From: Candidatus Kapaibacterium sp.
GTDB taxonomy: Bacteria; Bacteroidota; Ignavibacteria; Kapaibacteriales; NICIL-2
Direction: 5' to 3'
Length of the DNA: 64,000 nucleotides
Assembly: GCA_026003475.1 (NCBI GenBank)
Contig: BPHJ01000001.1
Coordinates: 444,545-508,544 of the forward strand
Numbering within the stretch: position 1 is the stretch's first letter; each line of letters begins with the position of its first letter. Both the position numbers and the translations under genes were made by a program. This document shows positions 19,744 to 26,795 of this stretch, piece by piece. The notes beneath the pieces were generated by a model. It worked only from the letters and a program-made list of their open reading frames with translations. It made no database searches and had not been told where the DNA came from.

Positions 19744-19828
19744 GCGGACGTGGCGGAATTGGCAGACGCACCAGACTTAGGATCTGGCGGGGTAACCCGT
19801 GAGAGTTCGAGTCTCTCCGTCCGCACCA
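19744..19828 (+). tRNA. tRNA-Leu (anticodon UAG)
   Basis: 85 bases including the encoded CCA. The acceptor stem GCGGACG pairs with CGTCCGC, the anticodon stem CCAGA pairs with TCTGG around the loop CTTAGGA (anticodon TAG), there is a long variable arm as in class II tRNAs, and the T loop is TTCGAGT. It reads CUN leucine codons. Confidence 0.97.
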
Positions 19829-19867
19829 GGAGCTATCGTTTTTTCCACTATTGACCGAGGTTTTCCC

Positions 19868-21151
19868 GTGCAAACCACACTAACGACCATTGGGGGATTG
19901 CGCCGCAGCGTTGAGATCACGCTCAGCTACGATGAACTGGCACCCCATTTCGAACGTGCATACAGCGAAGTTCAGCGCGACTTGCAATTGGAAGGTTTCC
20001 GAAAGGGCAAAGTGCCGATGGACATTATTAAGTCCCGGTACGGCGACAAAATCGAACGCGATGCACTCGGCGACATTGCCAGCGATGCATTCCGCACAGC
20101 TGCCCGAGAGCATGAACTCGATGTGATCGGCACGCCTGTTCTGGTGGAAATGAACCGCACTGCTGAGCGGGGCGCCCGCTTTGTCATTGAATTCGAGGTG
20201 ATGCCAACCATTTCGCTCCGCCCCTACGACGAGATCGAGATCGTCAAACCCATCCGCCAGATTAGCGAGGTGGATGTTGATGAGGAACTCTACAACCTGC
20301 AGCTCCGATCAGCCAAGCTGGAGCCAGCCGACCAAATCACCGATTCGATGTACGTGGTCAAGTTGAAATTCTCTCCGGTTGATCCACAAACGAATGCGCC
20401 AATTCTTGGTGGTAAGGAGCAAGAGTTTTTCCTTGACGACGAGCGAATGGATCCACTACTCCGCAGCGAGCTGATCAATCTTCGCGTCGGGGATAGCTTC
20501 GTCTATCGCACCGAACACCAGGGAGACGAACACGGGGATCAACCGCATCAGCATGTGTACCATGTGACCGTCCAGCAGATTCAGCGTGTGGTTCTGCCAG
20601 AGTTGAACCAGGAATTCATCACCTCGCTTAGCGGTGGCAGGCTCAGCACCGAAGATGCCCTGCGTCAGGATATTCGTCGCTCGCTGGAGGAATACTGGGA
20701 AAAAGAACTTGCCAACTACCTTCGCGAACGGTTGGTGGATGCGATGGTCGAAGCCCACGATTTCGAGGTTCCCGATGGGCTTGTCCGGGTCATGGCGGAA
20801 GAATTCGCTGACGAAGCACTCCAGCGCGGCAAAGACGATAAGCGGATGCAGCAAATCCCTCGCGAACAACTCATCGAATACTTCCTGCCACAGGCTGAAC
20901 AGGCGGTGCGATGGCAGTTGATTGCCGACACTATTTTGCGCACCGAAAACATCACGCTCAACAACGAGCAACTCGCCGACATTGCTGCTCGCTACGGCGT
21001 AGATACAGAGCAGCTGAAGATGGCACTGGAACAAAATGCCAGTCTGCGTAACCGCTTGCTGACGGATGCGCTCTTCGACTTTCTTTTTGCGCGGGTGCGC
21101 GTGGTCGAGCGTCCCTACGACGAGCTGCTCGAACAAGGTGGCGACGCCTAA
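19868..21151 (+). CDS. tig: Trigger factor
   Basis: 427 residues from GTG 19868, with GAGG 7 bases upstream. The open frame runs back into the tRNA, so the earlier start is rejected. Ribosome-bound chaperone and peptidyl-prolyl isomerase. The ribosome-binding signature is in LEGFRKGKVPMDIIKSRYG near residue 40. The FKBP-like middle domain is present but divergent (GGKEQEFFLDDERMDPLL, VGDSFVYRTEHQ) with a His-rich insertion, so isomerase activity is uncertain. The helical C-terminal domain follows. It is the first gene of the classic tig-clpP-clpX order. Confidence 0.95.
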   Translation: MQTTLTTIGGLRRSVEITLSYDELAPHFERAYSEVQRDLQLEGFRKGKVPMDIIKSRYGDKIERDALGDIASDAFRTAAREHELDVIGTPVLVEMNRTAERGARFVIEFEVMPTISLRPYDEIEIVKPIRQISEVDVDEELYNLQLRSAKLEPADQITDSMYVVKLKFSPVDPQTNAPILGGKEQEFFLDDERMDPLLRSELINLRVGDSFVYRTEHQGDEHGDQPHQHVYHVTVQQIQRVVLPELNQEFITSLSGGRLSTEDALRQDIRRSLEEYWEKELANYLRERLVDAMVEAHDFEVPDGLVRVMAEEFADEALQRGKDDKRMQQIPREQLIEYFLPQAEQAVRWQLIADTILRTENITLNNEQLADIAARYGVDTEQLKMALEQNASLRNRLLTDALFDFLFARVRVVERPYDELLEQGGDA

Positions 21152-21847: not shown

Positions 21848-23101
21848 ATGAGCAAAGAGTACACCTGCTCATTCTGCGGACGCTCTGCCCACGAGGTGAC
21901 GACGCTCATCACGGGCAACAATGCGAACATTTGCGACATCTGCGTTATCAACTCGCTTGTCATGTTGCAGAGTCGCCAGCGGGAGCGGCAATCAGCAGCG
22001 CCCCAGCCGAGATTGACGCTGCCCAAGCCATCGGAGATCAAGGCCCAACTCGATAGCTACGTTGTCGGACAGGAAGAAGCCAAACGCGCGCTCGCCGTTG
22101 CCGTCTACAACCACTACAAGCGCGTATTGGGTGGGAGTGTGCTCGGCATGTTCGAAGATGTCGAGGTGGATAAAAGCAATATTCTGCTCATCGGTCCAAC
22201 AGGCACGGGGAAAACGCTCCTGGCACGTACGCTGGCGAAAATCCTCGATGTGCCCTTTGCGATCGCCGATGCGACCACGCTCACCGAAGCGGGCTACGTC
22301 GGCGACGATGTAGAGTCAATCATTTCGGCGCTCTTGCAGAATGCCGACTACAATGTTGCGCGCGCCGAAATGGGAATCATCTACATCGACGAAATTGACA
22401 AGATCACGCGCAAGAGCGATTCTCCCAGTATCACGCGCGATGTCTCGGGTGAAGGAGTTCAACAAGCCCTGCTCAAACTCCTGGAAGGGACCATTGCCGG
22501 CGTGCCCCCACGAGGTGGACGCAAGCATCCCGAACAACCACTGCTGCAGGTGAACACACGTAACATTCTGTTCATTTGCGGCGGAGCTTTCGACGGACTC
22601 GAAAAGATCATTGCGCGGCGGATGCGCTCGACCGCAATTGGCTTCCATAATCCTGGAACAACCAGCGTCGAGGAAACCTATGCGCTCCTGAGTCACGTCG
22701 AGCCGGAAGATTTGCTCAAGTACGGCTTCATCCCAGAGTTCATTGGTCGCTTGCCAGTGATGGTTGCGCTCCATCCGCTCGATGATGATGCAATGCTGAA
22801 CATCCTTACCCAACCGAAGAATGCGCTGGTCAAGCAGTACCAAAAACTCTTCGCAATGGAGGGTGTCGAGTTGGAGTTCGAGCGTGATGCATTGATGGAA
22901 GTGGTTCGCCGCGCACGGGAGCGACGCACCGGCGCGCGTGGATTGCGCTCGATCTTGGAGGAAGTGATGCTGCCAATCATGTACGAGTTGCCGGAGCTGC
23001 GGGGAGTTCGTCGAGTCCGAATACCGGCAAGCGTTATCCGCAGTGAGTCGCCGGCAGTGCTTGAGTACGAGAGTGCGCCATCGGCAACCGAAGCAGCCTA
23101 A
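21848..23101 (+). CDS. clpX: ATP-dependent Clp protease ATP-binding subunit
   Basis: 417 residues. AAA+ unfoldase that feeds ClpP. The N-terminal zinc-binding domain has C7, C10, C29 and C32. Walker A is GPTGTGKT (about 116-123), Walker [11 protein letters not shown], with [15 protein letters not shown], and the C-terminal sensor region REWLGARG-like stretch reads [16 protein letters not shown]. Its stop shares the four bases CTAA with the convergent kynA stop. Confidence 0.97.
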
Positions 23102-24192
23102 CGTAGGTCGTCGTGATTGACTTCTGCGACAAAGTGCAGGCGCTGGGCAATATCGTCGGGCAGTGGTGGAACGCGTGAAGAGGGCAGGATATAGCTGCTC
23201 AGCGCTGCAAGGTCTGCAAATACCCGGTGCTCAAGCACGGTTTTCATCAAGTAGTCAAAGCCACTCGAACCACCAGTGCCGGTGCGCTGACCAATCATCC
23301 GACTTACCATCAGCGCGTGGCGAAAGCGGAACATACTCAACCGTTTGTCCAGTTCAAGAATCGCGTCGAGGAAACGGAAGGGCTGTTGCAGCAGGGGATA
23401 ATGCGAATACACTGTGATGAACAATGCCGCCAATGTTGCTCGCTGGGAAAGGCGCTTTTCGCCACGCTCGACCAGTTGAGCATAGGCAGTGGGGTCGAAC
23501 AACGCCCCAAAGTGTGCTTCCAAACGGCTGATTTGCTCGAGCTGTCGCTGGCGCTCGGAAGGGTGGAGCGTTGATATCGAAGCCAATTCAGCGCGGTCGT
23601 GTTCGAAGATTTGCTCAACTGCCTGACGGTATGCGTCCAAGAACCGATACGAGCCCGATTCCATAAACGGCATCTTTTCGAGCCAGTGCTCTACAGCGCG
23701 GAAGAGTGTCGGCCCGCGTTCGATCTGCTCGAGCGTGCGGCGGTCTTCCTCCCGCAGCCGGGAACGGTAGCCAGCAGCATCAATCTGCACACGCCGGCTT
23801 TCGTCAACACCAACGAGAACTTCCAGCATCCGGAACTGCACCGACTCAAATCCACTGGCGGGGTAGAGCAGGTCGCGAAACTCCATGAATTGCTGCGGGG
23901 TCATCGTCTCGAGCACGTCGAAGTGACCATCGAACACATTCATAATCATCAGCATTCGGCGGATACGGTCGAGCGCGATGCCCACGTCGGATTCCGGCAC
24001 GTAGGGTTGGCTCAAGCGTGCAATCACATCGCGGAGTTCCCAGAGCAGTTGCTTGAACCAGAGCTCGAAGGCTTGGTGAACGATGATGAAGAGCATCTCA
24101 TCGTGTGCTGTGGCGCCTGCTTCCGTGCTCCGCAGCGTTTGCGCGCCGAGAATCTTTTCGAGCTGGAGATAGTCGCCGTAGTAAAGTCGCAT
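23098..24192 (-). CDS. kynA: Tryptophan 2,3-dioxygenase
   Basis: 364 residues. Haem enzyme that opens the tryptophan indole ring to N-formylkynurenine, the first step of the kynurenine pathway. Seen: [20 protein letters not shown], the family's substrate and haem-pocket signature, and [24 protein letters not shown] (the proximal His region; named here as two adjoining motifs). It starts 9 bases after the RDD gene, so both probably share a transcript. No other kynurenine gene lies in the window. Confidence 0.93.
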
Positions 24193-24201
24193 TTGGGTGT
24201 G

Positions 24202-24819
24202 CTATGTCAATGATTCTGCCGCTCGGATGCCCTCACGACGGTAAACCGCTGTCTTTGCGATCAAGTCATGGAGAGCTTGACGATTGGCGCCAAGCACAAA
24301 AAAACATCCGATGAAGATAACCACGCCGACAATGGTTGCCAACGTGCTCAAGATGGAGGTTGCTGTCACCGTAGCCACAATATTGAGCACCGACGATAGC
24401 CCGGTTTTGACAAACCAGCGCGTTGCCAGTGTTGCAGTGGGAGCAACCGTTGCATCGGCAGTGGCGATTTTGATGCCAAGCATCATTTTACCCGGTGTTG
24501 CTGCCATCGCGATTTCTGTCAGCGAGTAGAGCACTGCAACAATTGTTCCGACGATGCCCCAGAGAATGCCCATCTTGGTGTATCCACTGATCATCTCAGC
24601 CTGATCGGTATCAAACTCTGCCAACGCGGCGTTCTGCTCTTCCAGTTGTGCAGCGATCTGCTTTTCGACCAGCGGCTCGAAGGAGGAACCAGCGACAGCG
24701 TACACTATCCCCGACAGCATGACAATGATGATCACATCGAGGAGGGCTGCACCAAACCGCCGTCCGAAGCCGATACGTTCTGCTGTTGGTGGCATCGAGG
24801 TATCGAATGTATCCGTCAT
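24202..24819 (-). CDS. RDD family membrane protein
   Basis: 205 residues from ATG 24819, with GGGAG upstream. The first membrane segment is preceded by ERIGFGRRFGAALLDVIII, the Arg/Asp signature of RDD proteins, and ATPGKMMLGIKI is also typical. Four hydrophobic segments are visible, with an acidic, Gln-rich loop after the first. The family's role is unclear; transport links have been proposed for some members. It is encoded with kynA, which may or may not be meaningful. Confidence 0.8.
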   Translation of the reverse strand: MTDTFDTSMPPTAERIGFGRRFGAALLDVIIIVMLSGIVYAVAGSSFEPLVEKQIAAQLEEQNAALAEFDTDQAEMISGYTKMGILWGIVGTIVAVLYSLTEIAMAATPGKMMLGIKIATADATVAPTATLATRWFVKTGLSSVLNIVATVTATSILSTLATIVGVVIFIGCFFVLGANRQALHDLIAKTAVYRREGIRAAESLT

Positions 24820-24868
24820 GGGTAGACTCCCAGATTGATGAAACATGCGCTGCCCGGGCTGGGCTGCG

Positions 24869-24881: not shown

Positions 24882-26795
24882 CTATGGATTGCCGGTTTCA
24901 GAGACGATACCTACCCGCCGGAGCACCTCGATTGCGACGGTGTAGCGCCGAAACGGTGGCATCAGGTACACACCGTCGGCATGGTGCCGAACGGCGGCCA
25001 GAAACTCGGCTGCGATTGCGATACCTTCCTCGGCAGCGGCTGCACTGGTTGGTGCGCGGCCTAAGCGCTCCCGCGCCCATCCCGGAATAACCATCCCAGG
25101 CACTTCGTAGTGTAAGAACTCCGCATGGCGGATGCTACGAAGGGGGAGAACGCCAACGATAAACCGCGCAGGCAAAGTCCGCACGCGTTCCCGAAACCGA
25201 AGCCAGAGCTCAACATCGAAGACCGGTTGAGTGAAGACAGCTTCTGCGCCTTCGGCAACTTTGAGAGCAAGGCGATCGAGTTCTCGTTCGAGGTCCTCAG
25301 CGCAGGGATTGCAAGCACAGGCAATGCAGAAGCGCGTGCTACCGCCGAGCGGATTGCCCGCAAGGTCGCGTCCGCTGTTCATCATGCGGAGAGCGCGAAT
25401 CAACCCGACGGCATCGAGATCGCCAACGCTGGTAGCACGCGGAAAATCGCCAATATGCGTTGGGTCCCCACTGATTGCCAAGATATTTTGAACGCCGAGC
25501 ATTGCAGCGCCTAACAGGTCGCTTTGCAGTGCAACCATGTTGCGATCGCGGCATGCAAGGTGGGTGATGCACTCGATTCCCGTTTGCTGGTGGACAATTG
25601 CGCTGAGCATGATGGAATTGACCCGAAGCCGTGCGCGAGCACCATCGCTGATGTTGACCGCATCAATCCCATGGCGACGCAAGTATGCAGCACCCTCGAG
25701 AACGCTCTGCATGTCGAGTCCGCGGGGAATATCCAGCTCAACTGTGGTGATGAAACGATTCTGCAAGGCACGAGCAAATCCAGACGGCTCCAGTGCTGGT
25801 TGTGCCGGAGCAAGGTGTGCCTCGCGGTGTCGCGATGGCGGCTCGATGTGCACTGGTGGTTCGGCTGCAAGTGCAGCGGCAATGGCACGGATGTGCTCAA
25901 CGCTCGAACCGCGGTCGGTACCGATGATGCGAACGCCGAGCGCGACAAGGTGGCGAACGGACCGAGCGACGTAGTCGGTATCGGACCGGTAGGTGATCGT
26001 GCCTCGGTTGTTGGTTGGAATGCTCGTGTCTGGCAGTGCGACAATCGGTAGTTGCGTGCCCTGACGCATTGCGGCGATGATACCGTGCATGCGCTGTGGT
26101 CCGACCGTCCCGCTTGCGCCGATGGCAGCTACCGGGTGCGATGCGAGCAACCGCGCGACATCTGCCGGGAACGAGGTCGCCAACACAGCACCATCTTCGG
26201 GGAAGGCTTTCAGGGCAATGATCGGTGTACCGTTGGCAAGGGGAGCGACAGTTTCCAGCGCCAGGATAAGCTCATCGAGTTCCACAAACGACTTGAGCAC
26301 GAGTGCATCGCATCCACCGTCGAGCAGGGCAATGGCCTGCTCGGCGAGGGCACGGCGCAGCAGCTCTGGTGTCAGCGGTCCGATAGGTTGCAGCATCTGG
26401 GGTGGCGGACCAATCACCCCTGCCACGTAGGCAGTGCGAGTGGCTGCTTTGCGAGCAATCCACACCGCCTTGCGATTGAGTTCATAGACCTTGTTGGCAC
26501 GATCGAGCTGGGCAAGCCAGAGTCGGCTTGCGCGTTCGGTTGGCGTTAGCAGCAATTCGGCGCCAGCTTGAACAAACAGACCGAATACCTCTTCCAACGC
26601 AAGGGGCGCTTGGAGAGCAAGCAACTCGGCACGGTCAGCAATGCGGCTCTGGGTTTCCTGCTCAACCGATCCAACAGCAATCAGCGGCGTTGGGTGGTGG
26701 AGTCGTTCGCGAAAGGGTGTGCGCTCTGGTGGCACCGTCACTATCGAGCGGTTGGTGTACAACGCAAAATTCGCATTTTTGCCATTGCTTGTCAT
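24882..26795 (-). CDS. Fusion: degenerate homocysteine S-methyltransferase domain + methylenetetrahydrofolate reductase
   Basis: 637 residues. The C-terminal half (about 345-637) is a good MetF domain that reduces 5,10-methylene-THF to 5-methyl-THF with FAD: FITTVELDIPRGLD carries the catalytic Glu, and ITHLACRDRN, ILAISGDPTH and FTQPVFDVELW follow. The N-terminal half aligns by eye along the homocysteine S-methyltransferase fold, but its key sites are replaced. The zinc-site GxNC segment reads GASGTVGP, and the GGCC-TTPEHI segment reads GTDRGSSVEHI. The N-terminal DGAMGT equivalent reads VGSVEQE. Zinc binding, and so methyl transfer, looks lost. The true start may lie slightly inside (GTG codons near residue 18). 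Its start is only 20 bases from the divergent acyl-CoA dehydrogenase. Confidence 0.88.
   Translation of the reverse strand: MTSNGKNANFALYTNRSIVTVPPERTPFRERLHHPTPLIAVGSVEQETQSRIADRAELLALQAPLALEEVFGLFVQAGAELLLTPTERASRLWLAQLDRANKVYELNRKAVWIARKAATRTAYVAGVIGPPPQMLQPIGPLTPELLRRALAEQAIALLDGGCDALVLKSFVELDELILALETVAPLANGTPIIALKAFPEDGAVLATSFPADVARLLASHPVAAIGASGTVGPQRMHGIIAAMRQGTQLPIVALPDTSIPTNNRGTITYRSDTDYVARSVRHLVALGVRIIGTDRGSSVEHIRAIAAALAAEPPVHIEPPSRHREAHLAPAQPALEPSGFARALQNRFITTVELDIPRGLDMQSVLEGAAYLRRHGIDAVNISDGARARLRVNSIMLSAIVHQQTGIECITHLACRDRNMVALQSDLLGAAMLGVQNILAISGDPTHIGDFPRATSVGDLDAVGLIRALRMMNSGRDLAGNPLGGSTRFCIACACNPCAEDLERELDRLALKVAEGAEAVFTQPVFDVELWLRFRERVRTLPARFIVGVLPLRSIRHAEFLHYEVPGMVIPGWARERLGRAPTSAAAAEEGIAIAAEFLAAVRHHADGVYLMPPFRRYTVAIEVLRRVGIVSETGNP

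Follow-up and report, generated by a model that had tools for sequence, protein, structure and literature searches.

The N-terminal barrel of a protein that unites a homocysteine S-methyltransferase (HMT) domain and an MTHFR domain in one polypeptide chain is best read, from its sequence, as a pseudoenzyme, i.e., a catalytically dead HMT, because the zinc ligands and the homocysteine-binding Glu are gone, no conserved alternative set of Cys or His has taken their place and the domain is under purifying selection. The host of the fusion is a Kapabacteria-like Bacteroidota with a genome of 2.16 Mb in one contig, and the gene was found in a stretch of 64,000 nucleotides of this contig (BPHJ01000001.1, positions 444,545 to 508,544), hereafter the window. 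The pseudoenzyme reading had already been put forward in a first-pass annotation of these letters, and the analysis presented here supports it. It appears rather probable, from the pattern of conservation, that this ancient pseudo-HMT has been retained to serve MTHFR from within the same polypeptide, in a structural or allosteric capacity; since the barrel is still tightly conserved, such a structural or regulatory role probably accounts for it better than a decaying leftover would.

Architecture of the Fusion Protein

The HMT/MTHFR fusion gene (Table 1) encodes a protein in which PF02574 (S-methyl_trans) matches residues 54-309 (E 6e-32, 112 bits for a Pfam cut-off of 22) and PF02219 (MTHFR) matches residues 345-606 (E 9.5e-30, 104.3 bits for a cut-off of 24). 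The NCBIfam family PRK08645 (bifunctional homocysteine S-methyltransferase/MTHFR) covers residues 40-628 with 521.9 bits, the cut-off being 453. The AlphaFold model of the protein (mean pLDDT 89.5, pTM 0.84) gives a confident fold for both domains, of which residues 25-318 match MetH 8g3h (VIA Z 35.7, rmsd 2.6, 289 residues) and residues 338-632 match MTHFR 8eac (Z 30.5, rmsd 2.2, 270 residues). Owing to the match to MetH over residues 25-318, the N-terminal barrel can be considered intact as a fold, and the HMT fold that the first-pass annotation had assigned to positions 25800-26795 (residues 1-332) is borne out by both the Pfam match and the model. The catalytic positions of the MTHFR domain (E353, D444 and Q523), as placed by alignment, are invariant in 71/71 sequences.

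Table 1. Location in the window of the features discussed in the text.
Feature	Position	Strand	Basis and remarks
HMT/MTHFR fusion gene (PRK08645 architecture)	24882..26795	-	ORF, Pfam and NCBIfam; 637 aa
Zinc-less HMT barrel, residues 37-309	25869..26687	-	PF02574 match, AlphaFold model, structural match to MetH
MTHFR (PF02219) domain, residues 345-606	24978..25763	-	E353, D444, Q523 = E. coli MetF E28, D120, Q183
G229 codon, equivalent of zinc ligand C207	26109..26111	-	Alignment; Gly in 93% of the zinc-less clade
D294-R295 codons, equivalents of zinc ligands C272-C273	25911..25916	-	Alignment
K168 codon, equivalent of E146	26292..26294	-	Lys in 93% of the clade, whereas every Cys-bearing relative has Glu
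D256 codon, clade-fixed Asp	26028..26030	-	Ala/Asn/Ser in Cys-bearing relatives; possible charge partner of K168
C-terminal half of split MetH (B12-binding and activation domains), 593 aa	39054..40835	+	Separate from the fusion

Loss of the Zinc- and Homocysteine-Binding Site

The ligand equivalences were taken from a phmmer alignment of the fusion protein to the MetH of T. maritima (1q7m). In this alignment, G229, D294 and R295 of the fusion protein face C207, C272 and C273 of MetH, the zinc ligands of that enzyme, K168 faces E146, its homocysteine-binding Glu, and D256 faces N234. All three zinc-binding Cys that characterize the PF02574 enzymes are replaced, together with the Glu, so that the loss of the zinc site claimed in the first-pass annotation is confirmed and extends to the homocysteine-binding residue. 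Similarly, the zinc site that PRK08645 expects in its HMT half is lacking from the fusion protein and from its whole clade. The motifs on which the claim was built, VGSVEQE, GASGTVGP and GSSVEHI, are all present and correspond to the motifs for which they were taken; the double Cys is indeed lost, but its equivalent is D294-R295 in GTDRGSSVEHI, located just before the GSSVEHI that had been quoted for it.

The host genome provides an internal control in the form of an intact, zinc-type N-terminal half of MetH (L001), with the motifs DGAMGT, GMNCATG and GGCCGTT. As this MetH half retains DGAMGT, GMNC and GGCCG, only the fusion protein has been affected by the loss, and since the identical state occurs in dozens of independent genomes, an assembly or sequencing error is ruled out as the source of the missing Cys. 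No replacement set of Cys or His residues is conserved in the HMT domain of the zinc-less clade (54 sequences). Two candidate ligands were discarded: H301, which is a His in most of the clade but belongs to PEHI, a motif that zinc enzymes possess as well, and position 294, which is too variable (D/E/S/Y/A/F/C) to serve as a metal ligand.

Distribution and Origin of the Loss

Some 80 fusion proteins were first inspected for their motifs, followed by about 30 further ones, phyla outside the Bacteroidota being represented by a few loci (two from Zixibacteria, three from Bacilli). The named relatives are MAGs and carry the labels Candidatus Kapaibacterium, Kapabacteria, Chlorobiota or Ignavibacteria. 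The zinc-less clade comprises 54 sampled sequences distributed over many Kapabacteria-related families, in which the Cys of GxNC has become Gly (93%), the CC pair mostly D-G (position 294 mostly D or E, position 295 Gly in 91%), and LETF reads LKSF; a lone Cys occurs at position 294 in two of these 54 rows. Fusions that still bear the Cys form a sister clade (L028-L033, L078-L080, L084, L102), and others occur in Zixibacteria (L083, L088), in Bacilli (L148-L150) and in an outgroup branch containing members of families f4, f7 and f9. In one Cys-type fusion, L145 (G368), the HMT and MTHFR parts lie in different frames, which corresponds to a frameshift or a split gene.

In the maximum-likelihood tree of the MTHFR part, the 54 site-less rows group together (support 98/93) with nine CCC rows as their sister (99/92), and the tree of the HMT part, built after removal of the motif columns, also gives one origin of the loss (100/98). 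These trees indicate that the Cys site was lost once, anciently, in the ancestor of Kapabacteria and their close relatives and, since both agree on a single origin, a domain swap is ruled out. A second, independent loss is found in L095, L137 and L138 (family f4, genera g11 and g152), whose motifs read NST, GGC[LV]G and PSAG; two of the three zinc Cys are gone and the homocysteine Glu is retained.

Selection and Newly Conserved Residues

In close pairs of the zinc-less clade, the HMT part displays dN/dS values of 0.01-0.09, similar to those of the MTHFR part, and in the source genus, where dS is saturated, its dN/dS is about 0.1. The slope of the HMT rate against the MTHFR rate is 1.32 in the zinc-less clade, 0.67 in the Cys-bearing sister clade and 1.10 in the outgroups, so that, measured against MTHFR, the rate of change of the HMT part in the zinc-less clade is roughly double that in the sister clade. 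Taken together, these rates point to a constraint that is partly relaxed or redirected, not to decay. In this respect, the lost positions are far from freely varying, Gly predominating at both 229 and 295.

The loops at the mouth of the barrel are still far less variable than the remaining HMT domain, with a mean entropy of 0.71 vs 1.46, and new residues (S43, F74, W112 and D256) have become fixed in the zinc-less clade. Positions 168 and 256 combine K/R with D/E in 52/54 zinc-less rows and E with A/N/S in 17/17 others, a pattern that makes a K168-D256 salt bridge plausible.

MTHFR and Methionine Synthase in the Genomes of the Lineage

The fusion protein is the single MTHFR of the host genome. 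Among the 119 genomes of the order, the fused MTHFR lineage is present in 64 outside f4, and no stand-alone form of it was seen in these 119 genomes outside f4. The fusion is full-length (at least 600 aa) and the sole MTHFR in 61 of the 64, the other three, which are incomplete genomes (80-88% complete), containing fragments of it. Three genomes of family f53 (G298, G302 and G306) are devoid of the fused MTHFR and possess an MTHFR of 300-348 aa that scores like a conventional MetF.

The MetH of the host is split into two halves located about 1.1 Mb apart, the half found in the window (Table 1) and another one at 1.62 Mb, comprising the HMT/folate domains (L001, 562-2478, minus strand), and MetE is absent from the host genome. 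Conversely, G247 (L005), which belongs to the source genus, and 6/6 sampled f52 genomes possess MetE and the zinc-less fusion and are devoid of the MetH activation domain. Since it occurs with MetH only or with MetE only, the zinc-less fusion does not depend on a particular methyl acceptor, and the idea, raised in the first-pass annotation, that the barrel couples MTHFR to such an acceptor is not supported; a structural or allosteric role within MTHFR would fit better. A full-length MetE (about 770 aa) has apparently replaced MetH in L005/G247 and in genomes of the related family f52 (L126, L127).

The fusion gene is followed by genes for an RDD-family membrane protein and a tryptophan 2,3-dioxygenase (23098-24846, minus strand), an order encountered in about 19 of 60 relatives. 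As both are unlinked to methionine, gene order was discarded as a clue to the role of the barrel. Rfam gave no hit in the vicinity of the fusion gene, hence no sign of a riboswitch. Elsewhere in the window, a tRNA gene (Rfam RF00005, 58 bits; 19744-19825, plus strand) extends into the beginning of the ORF listed at 19799-21151, the true start of which probably lies downstream because of this overlap.

Possible Role of the Zinc-Less Barrel

Sequence comparison shows that, in one ancestor of Kapabacteria and their close relatives, a YitJ-type HMT/MTHFR fusion had every ligand for zinc and homocysteine replaced, and that the barrel, joined to the only MTHFR of the genome, has since been held by purifying selection, methionine being produced by a separate MetH or MetE. 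In the scenario that we favour, this barrel would neither bind zinc nor methylate homocysteine, and may serve MTHFR as a structural partner, in support of its folding, its oligomer or its active-site loop, or as an allosteric module. The MTHFR domain is predicted to yield methyl-THF by means of its E28/D120/Q183-type residues, which have been retained, while the charge pair K168/D256 is predicted to fill or reshape the emptied pocket. The twofold faster evolution of the HMT part relative to MTHFR, even though the outgroups come to 1.10, and the changes at D41 and N85 in the source genus weigh against this scenario.

Other roles can be envisaged for the barrel, e.g., a new catalytic or ligand-binding job in which the remodelled mouth (motifs DGS, KSF, FPEDG, NGTVGPQRM, PDxGIPT and GADGG) accommodates another substrate or effector. 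The far stronger conservation of the mouth loops compared to the rest of the domain could speak as much for a job of this kind as for the favoured role, and the coherent appearance of K168 and D256 would be in line with it. A new job nevertheless seems rather unlikely, since much of the conservation of the mouth goes back to the active ancestor and may have structural reasons, and since the mouth is partly altered in the source genus at D41, N85, N228 and G295, D41 and N85 belonging to the old pocket. By analogy with the regulatory domain of eukaryotic MTHFR, of which it would be an independent counterpart, the dead barrel might also sense a metabolite of the methionine cycle, such as AdoMet, and act allosterically. 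This putative AdoMet sensing is attractive because AdoMet-dependent homocysteine methylation is attributed to YitJ of B. subtilis, called SamT, in a review (PMC6302742), but we regard it as unlikely. It is very unlikely that the barrel is a docking scaffold which hands methyl-THF to methionine synthase: MTHFR does supply this enzyme and, in Bacilli, the Cys-bearing fusion gene directly adjoins metH, but the zinc-less fusion is kept with either of two unrelated enzymes, MetH or MetE, and no met genes stand beside it in the window or recurrently among its relatives.

A decaying HMT vestige awaiting its loss would account for the roughly twofold faster evolution relative to MTHFR and for the fact that the Cys were lost at least twice; it is highly improbable and was rejected on account of the low dN/dS and the retention of a full-length domain in nearly all genomes of the lineage, to which the fixation of new residues and the prevalence of Gly at lost-ligand positions can be added. 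Equally hard to sustain is the idea that the barrel still methylates homocysteine, either with other ligands or without a metal. This idea would agree with the preserved fold but conflicts with the charge reversal at the homocysteine-binding Glu, which is a Lys in 93% of the clade, and with the lack, in the domain, of any clade-conserved Cys or His other than H301.

The first function in the database name "bifunctional homocysteine S-methyltransferase/MTHFR" is very probably absent throughout the lineage, and pathway predictions drawn from this name would therefore be wrong. The barrel offers a clean natural example of an enzyme domain that has apparently turned into a pseudoenzyme and been retained. 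Comparison with the Cys-bearing sister clade, together with a second, independent loss, makes the use of the fused barrel to MTHFR directly testable. No pseudo-HMT or zinc-less HMT/MTHFR was found in the literature searched, which lay mostly outside the subscription journals and thus gives a weak sign of novelty.

Comparison with Known Systems

The closest known proteins are the YitJ-type HMT/MTHFR fusions (PRK08645), which the protein described here resembles in domain order, length and MTHFR catalytic positions, and whose family cut-off it exceeds. However, the members from Bacilli and Zixibacteria retain the zinc Cys and the homocysteine Glu, all of which are missing from the present fusion. 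With the N-terminal homocysteine domain of MetH (T. maritima 1q7m/3bof, Thermus 8g3h) it has the barrel fold in common, but in MetH the barrel contains a zinc site and is followed by a pterin-binding domain, whereas here it is devoid of a zinc site and is followed by an MTHFR domain. The MetF proteins of E. coli and Thermus share with the fusion the MTHFR fold, as seen in the match to 8eac, and the equivalents of E28, D120 and Q183; only in the fusion is MTHFR joined to a barrel. Finally, eukaryotic MTHFR (human 6fcx/8qa6, Chaetomium 8uy1/8uy2) similarly associates one MTHFR with an extra fused domain, which may represent a functional analogy only, the extra domain being an AdoMet-binding regulatory domain at the C-terminus in eukaryotes and an HMT barrel at the N-terminus in the fusion described here.
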